From contig PFRX01000022.1 of the NCBI GenBank assembly GCA_002788775.1, forward strand, positions 1 to 35,169: DNA of 35,169 nucleotides, given 5' to 3'. A program made the translations under genes and the position numbers. This DNA comes from Candidatus Peregrinibacteria bacterium CG_4_9_14_0_2_um_filter_53_11 (GTDB taxonomy: Bacteria; Patescibacteriota; Gracilibacteria; UBA1369; UM-FILTER-53-11). Below the pieces are notes generated by a model. That model was not told the DNA's origin and made no database searches. It was given only the letters and a program-made list of their open reading frames with translations. Of this stretch, positions 15,983 to 35,169 are shown piece after piece (the first letter of the stretch is position 1; every line of letters starts with the position of its first letter).

Positions 15983-16624
15983 TTACTCCTCACCTTTCTC
16001 TTCGGGCTTGGCCTCTTCTGAGCCAGCCGCGGCACCCGCAGACTCACCTTCAGTAGGCGTCTCTTCAGTCTCTTCACGCTTTGCCGTGACTGTTACCACG
16101 GTGTCATCGGGAAGATCAAGAACGGTAATTGCAGAAGGAACCTCAATCGCAGCTACGTGAACCGCGCTGTTGAAGTCAACAAGCTGTGTGAGGTCGACCT
16201 CAACACGGTGTATAAGATCTTTTGGAAGACACTTAATCTTAAGTTCATGCTTCTGAATACTGAGAACACCACCAAGATCTTTAACGGCCGGTGAGACACC
16301 GACAAAGTCGATCTCAACCGAGGTGGAAACCTCCTTATCCATGTTGACCAAGATAAAGTCAACATGGGAGAAATCATCCGTAACCGGATGATACTGCACA
16401 TCGTGAACAAGAACAGGATGAGTCTTACCATCTATCGAGAGTTCGATAATTGTATTCTCACCGGCCTTGCGGAAGGTGCGGCGGAAAGTCTGGTAATCCA
16501 TACTAAGGAGCATTGGATCAATCGTTGGACCGTAAAAAACGGCGGGAACACGTCCCTGACGACGGATCGCTTTGGCTTTGTGCGCTTTGTCGCGCGGTGT
16601 AACTTCAAGTAGTAATTTTTCCAT
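15983..16624 (-). CDS. rplY: Large ribosomal subunit protein bL25 (CTC/TL5 form)
   Basis: bL25 binds 5S rRNA in the large subunit. This is the longer two-domain CTC form (213 residues). The N-terminal 5S-binding domain has R-R-Q-G-R-V-P-A-V-F-Y-G near residues 21-32 and H-D-V-Q-Y-H-P-V-T-D near 74-83. The TL5 C-terminal beta domain follows (about 95-185). The last ~30 residues are an acidic Glu/Ala/Gly tail. A near-consensus promoter ends about 10 bases before the ATG, predicting a leader of only 2-3 bases, so translation probably begins without a Shine-Dalgarno sequence. Confidence 0.95.
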   Translation of the reverse strand: MEKLLLEVTPRDKAHKAKAIRRQGRVPAVFYGPTIDPMLLSMDYQTFRRTFRKAGENTIIELSIDGKTHPVLVHDVQYHPVTDDFSHVDFILVNMDKEVSTSVEIDFVGVSPAVKDLGGVLSIQKHELKIKCLPKDLIHRVEVDLTQLVDFNSAVHVAAIEVPSAITVLDLPDDTVVTVTAKREETEETPTEGESAGAAAGSEEAKPEEKGEE

Positions 16625-16681: not shown

Positions 16682-16722
16682 AAAAAAGCAAAATCCCGCC
16701 TACCACCGAAGTGATAGACGGG
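16682..16722 (-). terminator. Strong terminator of the 1216-aa surface protein gene
   Basis: On the minus strand, a 12-pair stem (16695-16722, with G-U pairs) closed by a C-TTCG-G tetraloop, then ATTTTGCTTTTTT (16682-16694). It separates the surface-protein gene from the rplY promoter. Confidence 0.9.
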
Positions 16723-16761
16723 AAGTGCGAGAGACGCTCGGAAAGGTAAGGATACCAGATA

Positions 16762-19700
16762 CTAGTTACCAACCTCCTCAAGACGCTCAAAGGTTCGTCC
16801 ACCGATCACGAAGCCCTGATCACGAGTGAGACCACCCGCCGGATCGAAGACTTTCTGACCGTCAACTTCCTTACCGGTCATGATGTTGTACTTACTGACG
16901 AATTCGACAGCTGCACGGTCATCACCGCTGAGGTTATTAACATCCGATGGAAGAGGTGCTGTGTTGATAGCAGGAGCACCGGCGAGGTCATCCTTCAAGA
17001 CACGGTACATGATCTTAGCCGTATCGAGACGGTCGGCCTGCTGGCTCATTGAACCAAGGTCGCTAAAGTTAACGCCCTTGTTCTCAAGCTCGGCGACACA
17101 ACCTGAAGCCCATGGTGAGACGCCCTGAGCCTTGGTAGGCACAGCATTTGAGTCGGTAACCTCCTTAAACTCAACGCCTGAAAGGCGGCAAGCACGGACG
17201 GCAACCATCTCAGGAGTCTCCGGACCGGCAGGATTCAACTTACCCTCGTTTGAGAGAACGGTGATTCCAAGGTCGAGAGCATTTGCTGCGTAAGGAGCGT
17301 TCCATGATGAGTTGTCGGCCATATCAACGGCTGGGACAACTCCCTCCTCAACCTTACGAGTAAGGTTTGCGTTTGCGGCCAAGATAGTAGCGGCAGCATC
17401 CTCAAACTTATCTGAAAGTTGAGCCGCGGTAGCACCCGACTGTGCGTAAGTGGTTACCTGCGTAAGCTGCTCCTGGATCGTCTTGGCTGCACGACTATCG
17501 GGAGGTGATGACAAAAGGCTGTCGGCAATCTTATCAAGGAGAGGTTTCTCGCTGGCAGGTGCAAGAGCACGAGCGGCATCGAGCTTCTCCATGATAGGTT
17601 TGACACGTTCAACGATAGCATCCTGACGATCTGAGCTCTTCAAGATAGCAACGTTATCGAGAGTCTGTCCGATCTTCTTTGCAGAGTCGGCATTTTCGAC
17701 ACTCGCAACACTTGTTGCAATATCGGCAGCATCAGGGTTTGTGGCGATAAAGGCCTGTGTAACCTTCTGAAGACTGTCCGTAAGTTCGTTAACCTTTGTT
17801 GTGAGCTGAGCGATCTGGGCACGGAGCTGAGCTACAAGCTCAGACTCTGCACCACCATCGAGTGAGTCGAGACCAAACTGACTCTCAAGACGGCTGTTCA
17901 ACTTGTCACGGAGAAGGTTACCCGTATCAGCAACCTCAAAGCCGCTTCCACCACTCATCATGGCGAAGAGACGACCCTTGATCTGACCGACACGTGCAGC
18001 GTCATTACTCTTACATGCGCTGAGACCGTCATTGAGAAGTTTCTCAACTACAGCCGGAGGAGGCGTAAGGCCCTCCTTCTCACGATTGTATCGTTCAAGA
18101 CCACTGGTGAAGAAGTCACAACTCTCTTTAGAGAAGATCGCCATATCGATCTCCTGTCGAAGAGTGTCGAGCTCCTGCATCAAGCCGGCGGTACCGAGGT
18201 AACGCTCAACCGGAGGCATACAGTCGCTCGGCATTGGCTCCTGAGGACCGAATCCACCAGGACCAAAGCCCTGAGGACCGAATCCACCCTGTGGGCCAAA
18301 TCCGCCCTGTGGAGCACCGAACTGACCGTTTGGTGCAAGCTGAGCAGTTAGGACCGAGTTCTGACCAAATGAGGCTGGAGCCCCACCGGGACCGAACAGA
18401 CCCTGCTGCTGAAGCTGCTGACTCTTCTCTTGGAGCTTACGAGCGAAGTCGTCGCCACCGAAGGCGGCGGGATCAAATGTTGGACCAAAGTTGGTTGGAC
18501 CGAAGTTAGCCGGACCAAATCCACCCTGTGGGCCAAACTGATCTTGAGGACCGAATCCGCCCTGTGGGCCAAATCCGCCCTGAGGACCGAAGTCGATAGG
18601 CTGCGGAGCAGCGTAAATTCCCCAGGCCTCACACTTCTTAGGAGGGTTCTGGAAGAAGGCATCCTGCTGCTTGGCAAGATCATCAAAGCTGATCGTTAGA
18701 TCGGCAAGAGGATTGTTTGCACGAGCCTGGACCTTGGCAAGAATCTCATTCATCTTGGCAAGAACCTCGGCAGAAGCACCTGCACGCTGAGCATCTTTAA
18801 TGTCGAATGAAAGTCGGTTTGCATCCTCCTTATTGTGCTGGATGATGAATCCGATGTTACGAGCGACATCAAGTTCACGCATGTTTCCCATAAGCTCACC
18901 ACGGAGCTCACGGATCTGGTCTGCACGAGCCTTAAGCTCCTGGAGCTTGGTCGACTCGGTTGATGAGGTTACCGATGAGAGCTCTGTAAGGAAGGCCTCA
19001 AGAGTCTTGGCACCCGCATCATACTTGGAGATCATAGGGATGTTGAGACCACCGGTCTCACGCTTAACCTCCTCGACCTGACGCTTAAGCTGACTTACGT
19101 CGTTCTGAAGCTCGCTGCGGAAGCGGCGAAGTTCATCACGAACACGTCGAGCATCGCCTCCTGAAAGGTCACCCTGATCGACCTCAAACTTACTGGGGTC
19201 GAAGGTAAACTGCTGCTCAAACTGAGCGCGGTTGAAACCGGCCTGACAGAAAGGATCATTAGGATTGAGCTGACAAGGGTCGATGTTCTGGAACTCATCG
19301 CTGAAGATGTCGAACTGAGGACCGTTCTGTCCCTGAGGACCGAAGTTGGACGGACCAAAGCCTGGAACCGGACCGAATGAGTTTGGACCCTGAGGACCAA
19401 AGTTATTGTTAGGACCAAAACCTGCGGCCGGGCCGAAAGGTGTAGGACCGAACTGACCATTCTGTCCGTTCTGACCACCAAGGTAGTCGGCACACGTTGC
19501 TGGAACGAGTGTCAACGTCTGGAAGTCAAAACGCTCTGCCGGGAACTTACGGCCATCACAAGTGAGCTCCTGGAACTGAGTCTGCTGAGCATTGGGGCCG
19601 AAAGCATTTGGACCCTGAGGACCAAATCCTGCATCAGGACCGAACTGACCATCATTGAATCCGGGTTCGCCTGGTGCGTTACGGAAAGCGGGATCGTTAC

Positions 19701-20412
19701 CCTGCTGTCCGTTGAATGGCTGGCCGTTTGGCCCGAACTGACCATTGTTTGGTCCGAACTGGTTAAACTGACCTGCCGGAGGACATGGCGCAGCCTGTGT
19801 CGGTACACAGTTTGTCTGACCCTGCTGTCCATTGAACGGCTGTCCGTTTGGAGCAAACTGACCGTTCTGACCGTTGAATGGCTGCCCGTTAGGTCCGAAC
19901 TGACCTGCTGGCGGACATGGTGCGGCAGCTGTAGGAACACAGTTTGGCTGGCCCTGCTGACCATTGAATGGCTGTCCGAACTGGCTACCGTTGAGAGTTC
20001 CGAAGGGATCTGGAGGAACGAATGTACCATTGTCCCCAGGAGGGGGCACGAACTGGCCACCATTGAAGTTGGGATCACCTGCTGGGGGGACAAAACCACC
20101 GGGAGGAGGCACGAAACTACCGTCCGGAGGTGGTGGAGGTGGTACGAAGCCGCCGCCATCCGGTGGTGGAGGTAGGAAGCCGCCATCCGGTGGTGGAGGC
20201 GGAGGAAGATCGGCCGGAGGAGGTGGGGGTGGGGGTGGGGCATCCGCCGGAGGTGGTGGTGGAGGTGGCTCAGTGGCATCCTGGGCGCTTGAGAGACCGA
20301 AGGTCAGAGCGACGACAAGAACTGCTACTGCAGCAACTCCGCCAACACCAAGATAGAGCTGATTATGCTCCTGCTTGTGCATCGATTTTGTCTGCTTATT
20401 TTTTTTACTCAT
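16762..20412 (-). CDS. Giant surface protein with poly-Pro, F-G-P repeats and SLH-like C-terminus
   Basis: This 1216-residue protein starts with a basic N-terminus and a hydrophobic segment (about 19-43), a signal peptide or anchor. Next come poly-Pro/Gly runs (48-110), then Gln/Asn/Gly/Phe/Pro-rich repeats (Q-P-F-N-G-Q, F-G-P-N-G, F-G-P-Q-G; about 140-405 and 604-726) that include a duplicated C-V-P-T-x-A-A-P-C-P-P-A-G-Q-F pair. Helical, coiled-coil-like parts lie at about 425-600 and 735-1020. The last ~195 residues resemble divergent SLH modules (V-D-M-A-D-N-S-S-W...A-L-D-L-G-I, and a final F-D-P-A-G-G-L-T-R-D-Q). I infer a cell-surface structural protein held to the wall by SLH-like domains. 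Strong terminator; leader of unknown length, CU-rich; no Shine-Dalgarno sequence seen. Confidence 0.85.
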   Translation of the reverse strand: MSKKNKQTKSMHKQEHNQLYLGVGGVAAVAVLVVALTFGLSSAQDATEPPPPPPPADAPPPPPPPPADLPPPPPPDGGFLPPPPDGGGFVPPPPPPDGSFVPPPGGFVPPAGDPNFNGGQFVPPPGDNGTFVPPDPFGTLNGSQFGQPFNGQQGQPNCVPTAAAPCPPAGQFGPNGQPFNGQNGQFAPNGQPFNGQQGQTNCVPTQAAPCPPAGQFNQFGPNNGQFGPNGQPFNGQQGNDPAFRNAPGEPGFNDGQFGPDAGFGPQGPNAFGPNAQQTQFQELTCDGRKFPAERFDFQTLTLVPATCADYLGGQNGQNGQFGPTPFGPAAGFGPNNNFGPQGPNSFGPVPGFGPSNFGPQGQNGPQFDIFSDEFQNIDPCQLNPNDPFCQAGFNRAQFEQQFTFDPSKFEVDQGDLSGGDARRVRDELRRFRSELQNDVSQLKRQVEEVKRETGGLNIPMISKYDAGAKTLEAFLTELSSVTSSTESTKLQELKARADQIRELRGELMGNMRELDVARNIGFIIQHNKEDANRLSFDIKDAQRAGASAEVLAKMNEILAKVQARANNPLADLTISFDDLAKQQDAFFQNPPKKCEAWGIYAAPQPIDFGPQGGFGPQGGFGPQDQFGPQGGFGPANFGPTNFGPTFDPAAFGGDDFARKLQEKSQQLQQQGLFGPGGAPASFGQNSVLTAQLAPNGQFGAPQGGFGPQGGFGPQGFGPGGFGPQEPMPSDCMPPVERYLGTAGLMQELDTLRQEIDMAIFSKESCDFFTSGLERYNREKEGLTPPPAVVEKLLNDGLSACKSNDAARVGQIKGRLFAMMSGGSGFEVADTGNLLRDKLNSRLESQFGLDSLDGGAESELVAQLRAQIAQLTTKVNELTDSLQKVTQAFIATNPDAADIATSVASVENADSAKKIGQTLDNVAILKSSDRQDAIVERVKPIMEKLDAARALAPASEKPLLDKIADSLLSSPPDSRAAKTIQEQLTQVTTYAQSGATAAQLSDKFEDAAATILAANANLTRKVEEGVVPAVDMADNSSWNAPYAANALDLGITVLSNEGKLNPAGPETPEMVAVRACRLSGVEFKEVTDSNAVPTKAQGVSPWASGCVAELENKGVNFSDLGSMSQQADRLDTAKIMYRVLKDDLAGAPAINTAPLPSDVNNLSGDDRAAVEFVSKYNIMTGKEVDGQKVFDPAGGLTRDQGFVIGGRTFERLEEVGN
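18225..18600 (-). repeat. F-G-P-Q-G-G coding repeats (second block)
   Basis: About a dozen imperfect copies of a motif coding for F-G-P with Gln, Gly or Asn (residues about 604-726 of the surface protein). Copies within runs are nearly identical at DNA level, so recent slippage or recombination is likely and allele length may vary. Confidence 0.75.
19320..20000 (-). repeat. F-G-P / Q-P-F-N-G-Q coding repeats (first block)
   Basis: Imperfect repeats coding for F-G-P-N/Q-G and Q-P-F-N-G-Q-Q-G, including two copies of a Cys-pair unit (C-V-P-T...C-P-P-A-G-Q-F). Part of the 1216-aa surface protein. Confidence 0.75.
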
Positions 20413-20657
20413 GTGTTTTTTTATGAGTTAATGAATTAATGAGAGAAAGAGGAGGGAACGCGAAAGAGACGGAATATCGACCGAGAGATCCCGTCAAGAA
20501 ATGAAGGAGAATATAGAGGAAAGCTGCTGAAATTTCATGTTTGTTTTTTTTCGCGAACTTAAAGTAATAATACAATATTATAGGTTAAAAGTCCAGCCCC
20601 AACTTCCCTTCCCCTTTTAGGCGGGAACCGTTACCCTGGGAGTACAGTTAACTTTTA
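20413..20657. other. Divergent intergenic region, surface protein (-) and ybaB (+)
   Basis: Holds two AT-rich stretches. Next to the surface protein gene is a tandem TTAATGA (about 20434-20448); around 20560-20586 lie TACAAT/TATTAT-like boxes on both strands. Between them the minus-strand transcript is strongly CU-rich. A TTGACG on the minus strand (near 20490-20496) has no good -10 at the right distance. Near ybaB, TTACCC (20631-20636), 17 bases and TTTAAT (20654-20659) could be its promoter. I see no tRNA, SRP RNA or DnaA boxes. Confidence 0.5.
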
Positions 20658-20669
20658 ATGTCAGTTCAT

Positions 20670-20975
20670 ATGGGATTATTCGACAAAGCCAAGAACGTCT
20701 ACTCAATACAGAAGCAGGCCAAGGCCATAAAAAATGAGCTCAAAAAAATTCATATAGAGGCCGAATCGGATGGAATGAAGATCACGATGAGCGGTGAGCA
20801 GGACTTCATCGAGTGTGCTCTTACCGATGAGCTCTGGACCGAGCTCACTTCGAGCCCTTACGGCAAGAAAAAGCTGGGAGAACTCTTTGTTAAAGTCGCC
20901 CAGAAAGCCGTTAAAAAAGCTCAAGAAATTGGCAGCGCCAAGATGAAAAACATCTGGGGCCAGCTGGGAGGATAG
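20670..20975 (+). CDS. ybaB: YbaB/EbfC-family nucleoid-associated protein
   Basis: YbaB/EbfC proteins are small dimeric DNA-binding proteins, often encoded near recR and dnaX. The 101-residue product has the family layout: an N-terminal helix with repeated Gln/Lys/Ala (I-Q-K-Q-A-K-A-I-K-N-E-L-K-K), a central three-stranded sheet (I-E-A-E-S-D-G-M-K-I-T-M-S-G), and a long C-terminal helix (F-V-K-V-A-Q-K-A-V-K-K-A-Q-E-I). An ATG four codons earlier (20658) overlaps a possible -10 box; 20670 is preferred but either is possible. mltG follows after 35 bases on the same strand. Confidence 0.8.
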   Translation: MGLFDKAKNVYSIQKQAKAIKNELKKIHIEAESDGMKITMSGEQDFIECALTDELWTELTSSPYGKKKLGELFVKVAQKAVKKAQEIGSAKMKNIWGQLGG

Positions 20976-21973: not shown

Positions 21974-23602
21974 TTAGGCTGATGCACCCGTTGTAGCCGG
22001 ATCGCCGACGGGGGCTGTTGGCTCTGTCGGTTGCTGAGTGGGTTTTTCGGCGGGGCCCGTCGGCTGCTTCCTAATAATAGTGAAGGTTGTTACGGGCGTT
22101 TTTTTACCATCACTCGAGAGCCCATAAACGGTATAGGTGTTTTCTCCAATCTTGAGGTTGCCGTACTCCGTGCGGGCATAGTAGCTCCAGCTCTTGCTGT
22201 CGGGTACATAGCGCGTTAGAGGAAAGTCGTTAACGAGGACCTTAACAATCCCCTGTCCGATCGATCCCGTGATCTCAACACTGGAGCTCTCGGTCTCAAG
22301 ACGCGCGGTCGAGTTCGACTGACCGTTGACCGTGAGCACCAGGGGGGCAGAGAGGTCGGCACTGAGTGAAGGTTTATCGTAGTTGATAACAAGCTCAGTG
22401 GGCTCACTCCTCTCACCGGCTGCATCGATCGCCACAAAGGTATAGCGGTTTACACCGGGAACCATGTTGCCAAGACTCTGGGATGCCACATAAGACCACC
22501 GAGTCGAGCCAGAAACATACTTCTGCAGGATATAAGACTCCGGCTTGCCTGCAACATAGGTGGTCGCCTCAATTTTGCGTGTACTACTCTCAACCGAGCC
22601 GGTAACAATGACCGTACTGTTGGTGGTGGTCCGGTCGGCCGGCAGGGGCGTTAAGATCTCAGGAGCGATGAAAACCGGCGTCACCTCTTCCTCAATGGGC
22701 AGCGTCACCTCACTCACCTCTTCTATAGAGGGATCGAGGGATGGGGTCGAAGAGTCGAGTAGAGTGGAGCCATTATCCGTGCCAACGGCATCCGCAACGG
22801 TAATGGCACTATCGCCACTCTCGTCCTGAGCACGATTCCACTTAAACCACTCGCTCTCACGGAAATGATCGGCAAAGAGACCAACAAGCTGAACCGTACG
22901 ACGCTCCTGCAGCTCACGGAGCTCGTTCTGGCCGATACTAACCTGCTGTCCAAGCTGAACGGTGAGAGTCTCGGCATCACGCAAAGTCGGGATCGCCCCA
23001 TCGGCCTCTTCGTTTTCAACACGAACTACAACCTGCACGGCACCGTTCATAACGCGCACATCTTCACGAGCAGAGGTTGTAAAACCGTTGGTCACACTGA
23101 AAATCGTCCCCAAAGAACTCACTTTGAGATGGTCGGTGGTCACAACAAACGAGGTCTGGACCTCCTCTTTTTCCGTACGCTTCAACCATATATCCCCACG
23201 CTTCAGCGAGAACTCGGCCTCATCTTGACCATCGCGTGTTTTGAGCGAGGTCAGCTCGATCTCGGTATCTGAACCGAGACGAATAATACTGCCGTTCAGA
23301 AGCGAGAGGATTGTGCGAGACCCGGCGCCTGTTCGTATCATATCTCCCTCGTGGAGGATGGCGCCTGTAAATGAGTCGTTCCAGTCATCGACGCCCCATA
23401 TCTTCATCTCGGTCCGGCCGGTAACAACTTGGACCGCGGCCTTATTTTCAAGCTGCTGCTGACGTTTTTCAATAAAGTAGTCGGCTATCTGAAAGACCAA
23501 GACGCCGATCAGCACAAGAGTAATAAGCGATAAAAAAGGCAAAAATGCCCCCTTGCGACGTCTGCGTCGCTGACTGTAGCGGGTTCTGTAATGCATATCC
23601 AT
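21974..23602 (-). CDS. FecR-domain membrane protein with two Ig-like repeats
   Basis: The 542-residue product begins with a basic cytoplasmic stretch (R-R-R-R-R-K), one membrane helix (about 22-42), then a FecR domain (about 60-190; G-D-M-I-R-T-G-A-G-S-R-T-I-L-S-L-L-N-G-S, then L-K-R-G-D-I-W). In classical FecR this type of domain senses and signals, but no sigma factor gene is nearby, so a structural or wall-binding role is as likely. Two Ig-like repeats follow (about 330-420 and 440-510), sharing W-S-Y, G-N and G-x-N-x-Y-T motifs, and a Pro/Thr tail. The start at 23602 is chosen because a -10 box (23610-23615) overlaps the longer frame. Confidence 0.8.
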   Translation of the reverse strand: MDMHYRTRYSQRRRRRKGAFLPFLSLITLVLIGVLVFQIADYFIEKRQQQLENKAAVQVVTGRTEMKIWGVDDWNDSFTGAILHEGDMIRTGAGSRTILSLLNGSIIRLGSDTEIELTSLKTRDGQDEAEFSLKRGDIWLKRTEKEEVQTSFVVTTDHLKVSSLGTIFSVTNGFTTSAREDVRVMNGAVQVVVRVENEEADGAIPTLRDAETLTVQLGQQVSIGQNELRELQERRTVQLVGLFADHFRESEWFKWNRAQDESGDSAITVADAVGTDNGSTLLDSSTPSLDPSIEEVSEVTLPIEEEVTPVFIAPEILTPLPADRTTTNSTVIVTGSVESSTRKIEATTYVAGKPESYILQKYVSGSTRWSYVASQSLGNMVPGVNRYTFVAIDAAGERSEPTELVINYDKPSLSADLSAPLVLTVNGQSNSTARLETESSSVEITGSIGQGIVKVLVNDFPLTRYVPDSKSWSYYARTEYGNLKIGENTYTVYGLSSDGKKTPVTTFTIIRKQPTGPAEKPTQQPTEPTAPVGDPATTGASA

Positions 23603-23609
23603 GTAAAAC

Positions 23610-23615
23610 AGTATA
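23610..23615 (-). promoter_or_regulatory. -10 box of the FecR-domain gene, leaderless
   Basis: TATACT on the minus strand, seven bases before the ATG at 23602, so transcription should begin at or next to the start codon. No good -35 is seen. Confidence 0.4.
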
Positions 23616-23631
23616 ATCAAACACACCAGCT

Positions 23632-33503: not shown

Positions 33504-35169
33504 ATGAATTACACACGCCTCGCCATTTTAGCACTCTTCGTAAGCTCACTGGCCCCCACTCCCCTTGCCTATGCAGAAAACGAACTTAGCCAAACGCTCA
33601 CGATAGAAGAAGTTGGAGCTTTTGAGACGAGCGATCGCGAGTGGATTTTAATAAAGAATAGAGGGAGCGAGGCTCTGGAGCTGCAAGAATGGCACTTTTG
33701 GGAACAAGAGACGAACCACGGCATAAACATCGTTGATGACCAGAGAATTATAGAGCCGGGAGCGACGGCGATCATCGCTCAGAAGGCAGATATCTTCAAA
33801 GAGACCTACCCTGAGTACACGGGCCTCCTTTTCGACTCAAGCTGGAGCAGCCTCTCGATGGACGGAGAGCTACTCGGCATGAGATTACCCAACGGTGAGC
33901 TCAGTGATGAGACTAACTATGGCCCGACTACGGAAAGTCACAGCCAAATTCGAGATGGTGAGAGCTGGAAGGCCCATCCTACCGGAAGCTCACTGCGCGA
34001 CGCACCACAACCGTCAGTCCCTGACTCAACGTCAGCGACCGAAGCCGCGAAAACGCCTTCAACAAGCGACCCCACAGCTACCGAGGAGAAGACCACAACT
34101 ACCCCACCGCCGAGCTTTAACAAGCCCACCGCGATAGTCACGGTCGAGAGCGGCCAGCTTACGGGGGCTGCCCCCTTCACACTCAACCTGAACGGTCGCG
34201 ACTCATTTGATGCACACGACCAGCCGCTCAGCTTCTCCTGGGATTTTGGAGACAGAACCTACACGAATGCCCCCAATCCGTTTCCGCATACCTATAAAAA
34301 CCCGGGCCGGTACCAGGTTCGCCTCCTGGTGAAAAACGCCGCTGGCGAGACGCATAGTGACGCTCGGGAGGTTGTGGTGCGGGGAAGCGATCAGGGTGAT
34401 GCTCCAAGTGGGGCCCCTCTCACAAGTTCACACCAGATCTCTTCTCAGGGGATCAGCAGTGGTGGTGGCGCACCTATCTATCTTATTACCTATGTGGGAC
34501 TGCCCCCCGCGGAAGCTCCGGCATCGACCATCTCCACAAAAAAGGTAACGCCCAAGAAGACGACCGGGCCGGAAGTGAGCTCTGAAAAAATCTCACTTGA
34601 GCAGGCCCTCAACGAGGCAGATAGCCTCCTGGCGAACTTTACTGAAGCGGAGGCCGATGAGGAGAAGGTAAAAAGTGAGAAGAAATCAGGCAGCAAGGCG
34701 AGCGGTTATTCAAATGGGGAGCTGTCGAGTGAGATTGAGATTAGTGAGCTCCTGCCCGCTCCGGACACAAAAAACGCCTCACCTCTTCTATCTGAGGAGT
34801 GGATCGAGCTTCATAATAAGGGAAGCGCCCCCGTCAATCTTGGCAACTGGCTACTGGCCGACAAGAGCAAGCTCAAAAATCCCTTTAAAATTCCGGACAC
34901 ACTTATTATCCCCGCCGGTGGGTACATGCTCTTCCACAAGGTCGACACGAAGATATCGCTCAATAATGACACGGACGCCATCGTCTTGGCAGACTTCACC
35001 GGGACGCCCATCGATGCCCTCAGCTATACCCAGGCCTCAAAAGGCAAAGCCTATGCAAAAACAGAGAACAAGACGACCGGCACATCTGCCTGGCGCTGGA
35101 CCGAGCCCACACCGGGAGTCGCCAACATCGCTACGACTACGCTCCAGGGCTCGGTGAAACGCACGCCGG
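33504..35169 (+). CDS. Secreted LTD-PKD-LTD protein, 3' end cut by window
   Basis: The frame opens at ATG 33504 and stays open for 555 codons to the last base, so it continues beyond the window. A signal peptide is clear (residues 1-24, N-Y-T-R-L-A-I-L-A-L-F-V-S-S-L-A, cut after A-Y-A). A first lamin-tail-like domain follows (about 30-165), then a Thr/Pro-rich linker, a PKD domain (about 208-292; F-S-W-D-F-G-D, H-T-Y-K-N-P-G-R-Y-Q-V), a Lys/Glu-rich linker, and a second lamin-tail domain (about 410-540; E-W-I-E-L-H-N-K-G-S-A-P-V-N-L, then L-I-I-P-A-G-G-Y). Lamin-tail domains of this kind are common in secreted Patescibacteria proteins, sometimes beside nuclease or repeat domains that would lie beyond the cut. 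Surface adhesion or DNA binding is a guess. Confidence 0.85.
   Translation, partial: MNYTRLAILALFVSSLAPTPLAYAENELSQTLTIEEVGAFETSDREWILIKNRGSEALELQEWHFWEQETNHGINIVDDQRIIEPGATAIIAQKADIFKETYPEYTGLLFDSSWSSLSMDGELLGMRLPNGELSDETNYGPTTESHSQIRDGESWKAHPTGSSLRDAPQPSVPDSTSATEAAKTPSTSDPTATEEKTTTTPPPSFNKPTAIVTVESGQLTGAAPFTLNLNGRDSFDAHDQPLSFSWDFGDRTYTNAPNPFPHTYKNPGRYQVRLLVKNAAGETHSDAREVVVRGSDQGDAPSGAPLTSSHQISSQGISSGGGAPIYLITYVGLPPAEAPASTISTKKVTPKKTTGPEVSSEKISLEQALNEADSLLANFTEAEADEEKVKSEKKSGSKASGYSNGELSSEIEISELLPAPDTKNASPLLSEEWIELHNKGSAPVNLGNWLLADKSKLKNPFKIPDTLIIPAGGYMLFHKVDTKISLNNDTDAIVLADFTGTPIDALSYTQASKGKAYAKTENKTTGTSAWRWTEPTPGVANIATTTLQGSVKRTP

Follow-up and report, generated by a model that had tools for sequence, protein, structure and literature searches.

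Background

The closest described systems to the protein presented here are Sap of B. anthracis (PDB 3PYW, 6BT4) and SpaA of P. alvei (6CWH and others), both of which carry a trimer of S-layer homology (SLH) domains. Each groove of such a trimer spans three domains, taking Arg43 from one, Gly29 from another and Trp13 from the third; Sap and SpaA bind their ligand in groove G2 (PMC6081394), and G3 of SpaA is non-functional. Here we describe a protein of 1216 residues encoded in a 35,169-base window, which is a complete contig from the 1.2 Mb, 99 % complete genome of a Peregrinibacterium (Candidate Phyla Radiation (CPR)/Patescibacteria). Its open reading frame (ORF) runs from an ATG start to a TAG stop at 16762..20412 on the minus strand. 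The predicted SLH trimer fold, the predicted export and a CsaB gene in the genome are common to this protein, Sap and SpaA. It differs from them in having a divergent sequence that falls below the Pfam cut-off and a stalk rich in Phe-Gly-Pro (FGP). It also lacks the residues of G2, the very groove that Sap and SpaA use.

A second comparison, within the Peregrinibacteria lineage, is with Ca. Peribacter riflensis, whose large extracellular proteins, many of them rich in Cys, share size, export and fast change with our protein (PMC4736985). They average 7.2 % Cys, compared with 1.2 % overall and 2.2 % in the stalk here, so that our protein lies outside a Cys-rich class set at about 7 %. That study describes no SLH triplets with FGP repeats.

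A third likeness, drawn from general knowledge and as analogy only, is to FG-repeat nucleoporins and Gly-Pro-rich silk or elastic proteins. FG density, low charge and richness in Gln, Asn, Gly and Pro are similar, and the stalk of a sister genus has an FGPGGPG version of the motif. The likeness is one of composition and motifs, no homology is shown, and our protein is an extracellular bacterial one.

Little is known about the surfaces of CPR bacteria, and encounters of these tiny cells with partners and phages depend on them. We prefer to read the protein as a highly expressed, exported surface-coat protein of a Peregrinibacterium, which we consider rather probable. It offers a concrete candidate for a major coat protein, in an order-wide family with recognizable loci, and yields a structural rule that can be tested, namely that one SLH groove, built by residues from three domains, is missing from the family and kept by the other SLH proteins of the order.

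Gene and domain layout

Genomes compared are numbered G (G000 being the genome of the window), loci L and families within the order f. The protein is laid out as follows.

16762..20412, minus strand: entire gene, 1216 residues (ORF and translation; G004 ortholog in matching gene order; strong coding bias)
20284..20412, minus strand: residues 1-43, probable Sec signal with positively charged start, single hydrophobic stretch and S-x-A at 41-43 (hydropathy scan; alignment)
19198..20283, minus strand: residues 44-405, poly-Pro, Gln/Asn/Gly/Phe/Pro repeats and Cys-pair units (composition and shuffle test)
19246..19275, minus strand: residues 380-389, CQLNPNDPFC, a Cys motif conserved in homologs of G004, G002, G009 and G018 (motif search)
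18622..19158, minus strand: residues ~419-597, first helical core, common to homologs beyond the SLH part (sequence search; profile)
18241..18591, minus strand: residues 608-724, second Phe-Gly-Pro block (repeat scan; count)
17344..18222, minus strand: residues ~731-1023, predicted helices and coiled coil (AlphaFold secondary structure, of low confidence here; alignment)
16777..17343, minus strand: residues ~1024-1212, divergent SLH triplet with three modules (Pfam, profile-profile comparison, AlphaFold, Foldseek, groove residues)

The architecture given in the original prediction, made from the sequence alone, was a signal or anchor, poly-Pro, Gln/Asn/Gly/Phe/Pro repeats, coiled coils and SLH-like modules; the ORF, its composition and the structure predictions bear it out.

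Among relatives that carry the gene, Candidatus Peregrinibacteria bacterium CG11_big_fil_rev_8_21_14_0_20_46_8 (G004, contig PCVQ01000055.1), from a sister genus of the same family, is the closest. Its ortholog of about 1210 residues shares 46 % identity with our protein in the C-terminal part, has the same neighboring genes and is split across two contig ends (508 and 697 residues); from matching sequence and gene order we infer that the two pieces form one gene. This ortholog in the same gene order marks the frame as a true gene. The repeats are unlikely to stem from an assembly error, the longest exact repeat being 23 nt and the layout in G004 being the same; the G004 contig break lies in the helical core and not in a repeat.

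Hydropathy scanning finds one strongly hydrophobic segment in the protein, from about residue 19, ahead of the poly-Pro that begins at about residue 49. An uncleaved N-terminal segment in the membrane, with the C-terminal SLH part on the wall polymer, would make the protein a membrane-to-wall tether, a spacing strut spanning the envelope. The hydrophobic stretch is indeed long and strongly conserved, and the homologs of family f15 are lipoproteins by their lipobox, so that they probably combine a lipid-anchored N-terminus with a C-terminal SLH part. However, the S-x-A at the end of the stretch is invariant in the alignment of four genera, which fits cleavage, and a strut has no need of fast-changing Phe-Gly-Pro and Cys-rich stalks. 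We regard such a tether as improbable.

SLH anchor

Scored as a single sequence, residues 1030-1216 match Pfam SLH with an E-value of 0.0048 and 17.3 bits, the curated cut-off being 20.8 bits; several homologs pass that cut-off, among them those at L011, L012 and L016. A two-sequence profile of the C-termini from the window and G004, compared by hhalign, aligned to ten clear SLH relatives at 99.4 % probability (E 7e-22, 213 columns), and a five-member family profile matched the SLH trimer of B. anthracis Sap at E 2e-9. Against the PDB the two-sequence profile found no SLH entry; SLH was found once clear family members had been added. An earlier AlphaFold model of residues 780-1216 had low confidence (predicted local distance difference test (pLDDT) 59.9) and was poor outside the SLH part, and the C-terminal part was remodeled alone for this reason. 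Residues 990-1216, with 14 sequences, then reached a pLDDT of 88.9 and a predicted template modeling score (pTM) of 0.82, and the best 16 Foldseek matches in the PDB were all SLH-containing or S-layer entries, Sap and SpaA first.

Profiles, AlphaFold and Foldseek agree on the SLH-like anchor that had been proposed, and a lack of SLH similarity, which would have counted against the original prediction, was not seen. Whole-protein Pfam and NCBIfam scans returned nothing above threshold, and weak matches to Gp58 and Zincin_2 look like coiled-coil noise.

The genome carries 28 SLH matches and one CsaB-type pyruvyltransferase (PF04230 at G000:C36:60705-61541, 77.6 bits, cut-off 25.3), an enzyme present in 20 of the 21 genomes searched. 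Together with the SLH evidence, the presence of CsaB supports the predicted exported surface protein with an SLH anchor, and export and wall anchoring are well supported by sequence and structure prediction. The CsaB-type enzyme would modify the wall polymer, and known SLH biology and the presence of the enzyme suggest that the protein binds this pyruvylated polymer. A literature search on SLH in Peregrinibacteria found no paper.

Ligand grooves

Groove residues were read in 14 family members and in 16 other SLH triplets of the same order, a groove being called complete when it holds Arg or Lys, Gly, and an aromatic residue or His; the family was counted by hand. G2 is complete in none of the 14 family members, compared with 15 of the 16 controls, counts that come from sequences related by descent and are not independent events. 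For G1 the figures are 10/14 in the family and 13/16 in the controls, and for G3 13/14 and 9/16. A missing groove as a general trait of the order's SLH proteins is ruled out by the controls with an intact G2.

In our protein G3 is complete (W1037, R1128, G1180), G1 lacks the Gly alone (L1053), and all residues of G2 are lost (P1067, S1117, D1165). Such joint loss across three domains is the pattern expected if a single binding site had been lost. Among the controls, four show a matching joint loss of G3 residues.

L053, 2548-4929: SLH triplet with joint G3 loss
L054, 2961-4316: SLH triplet with joint G3 loss
L027, 1390-2781: SLH triplet with joint G3 loss
L094, 5975-7810: SLH triplet with joint G3 loss

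By their residues, these controls lend support to groove-by-groove loss as a wider pattern.

Codon adaptation and probable abundance

Codon adaptation was computed relative to ribosomal proteins, EF-G and EF-Tu for 248 frames of at least 150 residues, sampled from about one third of the genome. EF-Tu ranks first and a lipoprotein-like protein with MopE repeats second; our protein comes third with a value of 0.735, ahead of GroEL. Repeat composition is ruled out as the cause, the non-repeat parts being equally high (0.757 and 0.722). Homologs in G004 (5/82 and 10/82 for its two pieces) and G009 (4/61) rank high as well, and those of G026 and G044 rank 10/47 and 8/30. This codon bias makes high abundance of the protein likely.

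The lipoprotein-like protein with the second-highest codon adaptation has 861 residues with MopE metal-binding and thrombospondin type 3 motifs (L062 16740-19325, minus strand). Rank 4/248 belongs to a 199-residue protein encoded at the G000 alr locus (L039 4911-5510, minus strand), which is exported and matches no Pfam family; small proteins resembling it adjoin alr in G002, G003 and G005.

Phe-Gly-Pro blocks, Cys units and the stalk

The F-G-P repeats and Cys-pair units that had been predicted are present. FGP occurs 25 times and FG 32 times, mainly in two blocks (about 137-359 and 608-724), and 32 FG dipeptides is the highest count among 290 frames sampled from the same genome. The two low-complexity segments hold 13 and 12 FGP motifs, compared with 1.6 and 0.5 expected from 2000 composition-preserving shuffles (maxima 7 and 5). 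The excess of FGP is larger than that of FG (15 and 15, compared with 6.8 and 4.1 expected). These segments, with about one FG per 11-24 residues, are low in charge and rich in Gln, Asn, Gly and Pro, and residues 44-405 are nearly free of Lys and Arg. Among the 14 Cys of the protein are those of the NCVPT...APCPPAGQF unit, in two copies, and of the CxxxxxxDPFC motif kept in relatives.

The very similar repeat copies claimed earlier did not hold at the DNA level: no 24-mer recurs, and synonymous codons differ among the FGP units (Phe TTC 15 and TTT 10, with four Gly and four Pro codons in use). Because exact repeats reach at most 23 nt and the codons vary, length variation between strains is not indicated by the sequence. 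It is a reasonable idea by analogy with Ca. Peribacter alone, whose strains differ by small indels in large proteins, several of them predicted to be extracellular (PMC4736985). A contig scan for further genomes returned the G004 contig alone, and a second genome of the same genus was not found. Total length is nearly equal between the two genera (1216 and about 1210 residues) while the repeat wording differs.

The same observations bear on a neutral spacer, in which low-complexity blocks expand and drift with length as their sole function. Neither the sequence nor the composition of the stalk is conserved between genera, as a spacer would allow. Against it, the FGP units use varied synonymous codons and long exact DNA repeats are absent, a pattern that speaks for selection acting on the peptide and not for recent slippage; a separate exported protein of G002 also contains FGP. 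We judge a neutral spacer quite improbable.

The low-complexity parts probably make up an outer layer that is exposed and flexible, and they may form the elastic or phase-separating polymer first predicted. More specifically, the protein could be the bulk cell coat of this CPR lineage and resemble, outside a bacterial cell, a hydrogel of FG repeats: its Phe-Gly-Pro blocks would stick together as an elastic and selective layer, fastened to the wall by an SLH trimer that has been re-tuned to one non-standard ligand groove. We rate this idea as very improbable. Should the FGP blocks prove cohesive, the protein would give bacteria an unusual case of a cohesive coat built from low-complexity sequence.

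An order-wide family and its loci

The original prediction held that the protein resembles no common family. By sequence it belongs instead, as a divergent member, to the common SLH-anchored class and to a family found across the order, with an export signal, a hypervariable stalk, a helical core and an SLH triplet. Searched with a profile of the last 450 residues, 58 of 59 genomes gave matches, most of the weak ones being generic SLH. The helical core is common to homologs beyond the SLH part; its profile finds members outside the seed, with scores that coiled coils inflate.

The following features mark the locus.

15983..16624, minus strand: rplY (ribosomal protein L25), neighbor and locus marker (homolog search, 59 genomes)
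20658..20975, plus strand: ybaB-like gene, divergent, neighbor and locus marker (homolog search, 59 genomes)
16694..16723, minus strand: terminator-like hairpin of 13 pairs with T-rich tail, directly 3' of the stop codon (consensus scan)
20510..20595, minus strand: two weak promoter-like matches, 5' of the start codon (consensus scan alone)

Terminator-like sites in the region are no more numerous than in shuffles.

Family members usually lie next to alr; ours lies instead between rplY and ybaB. In the f5, f10, f14 and f15 genomes the homolog is divergent from alr, mostly beside DUF177-nusB-rnc genes, and in four f1 genera (G000, G001, G002, G004) it adjoins ybaB and, where visible, rplY. In G003 rplY and ybaB are adjacent with about 270 bp between them; in G005 a 282-residue exported helical protein is divergent from ybaB, with rplY directly after ybaB.

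Each genus has a different N-terminal stalk: G001 carries TPPTNTY repeats, G002 has Cys-rich units, and G004 has CQPGQPCPPPPNG with FGPGGPG. Within the family long FGP blocks are seen in the genus of G000 and in G004 only; shorter ones occur in separate exported proteins at the G002 alr locus, where two adjoining Gly/Gln/Phe-rich proteins carry FGP motifs (L041 2393-3760 and 4058-5071, minus strand). The 455-residue protein of this pair matches the helical-core profile at E 9e-7 in a small set. At the high-coordinate end of L047, the alr locus of G036, the homolog starts, at the contig edge, within a stretch of over 40 Gln; its helical region holds a further block, of FGGPQG type.

A stalk swapped between genera is also what an adhesin might show, its variable part binding other cells or surfaces as proposed for the large exported proteins of Ca. 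Peribacter. There, variation in large, partly extracellular proteins separates strains and has been linked to possible hosts (PMC4736985). Pfam and NCBIfam scans found no adhesion domain here, however, and codon bias as strong as this suits a bulk structural protein better than a low-copy adhesin. Adhesion is possible but unlikely in our estimate, and is compatible with a coat function, not exclusive of it. The predicted dependence on contact with other cells is an expectation from the lineage and not from this protein.

Proposed role

The main rivals to a surface-coat protein are thus the membrane-to-wall tether and the adhesin. As a coat protein, it would enter the Sec pathway by its N-terminal signal, with probable removal at the conserved S-x-A site. 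Its C-terminal SLH triplet, a fold supported computationally, would hold it to pyruvylated cell-wall polysaccharide made with the single CsaB-type enzyme, mainly through the sole complete groove, G3. Helical segments would give length and probable oligomerization. The two nearly uncharged Phe-Gly-Pro-rich blocks and the Cys-pair units may form a flexible, weakly self-cohesive, perhaps disulfide-linked brush, the outer coat layer, with fast evolutionary turnover.

Several observations weigh against this assignment. The single-sequence Pfam SLH score is below the cut-off (17.3 compared with 20.8 bits), the first SLH module lacks the TRAE arginine, and one groove is complete in our protein and none in the G004 ortholog. 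The G001 homolog lacks the SLH part, the G002 homolog has no codon bias (rank 57/84), and cohesion of the FGP blocks is an analogy. On balance the outer coat of the cell probably has this protein as one of its main components. It is a variant of SLH-anchored surface proteins, set above an ordinary one by its codon-bias signal and groove loss, and not a new kind of system.

Other genes in the window

At 2-2272 of the window (plus strand) a large exported-looking protein, cut by the contig edge, has repeated SpaA_2 prealbumin-like domains (Pfam E 4e-21) and a poly-Pro linker; at the other edge, 33504-35168 (plus strand) encodes a second large surface-type protein with Lamin Tail and PKD domains. 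A FecR-domain protein at 21974-23626 (minus strand) adjoins dnaA, and its position is kept in those relatives that were examined (G001, G002, G004).

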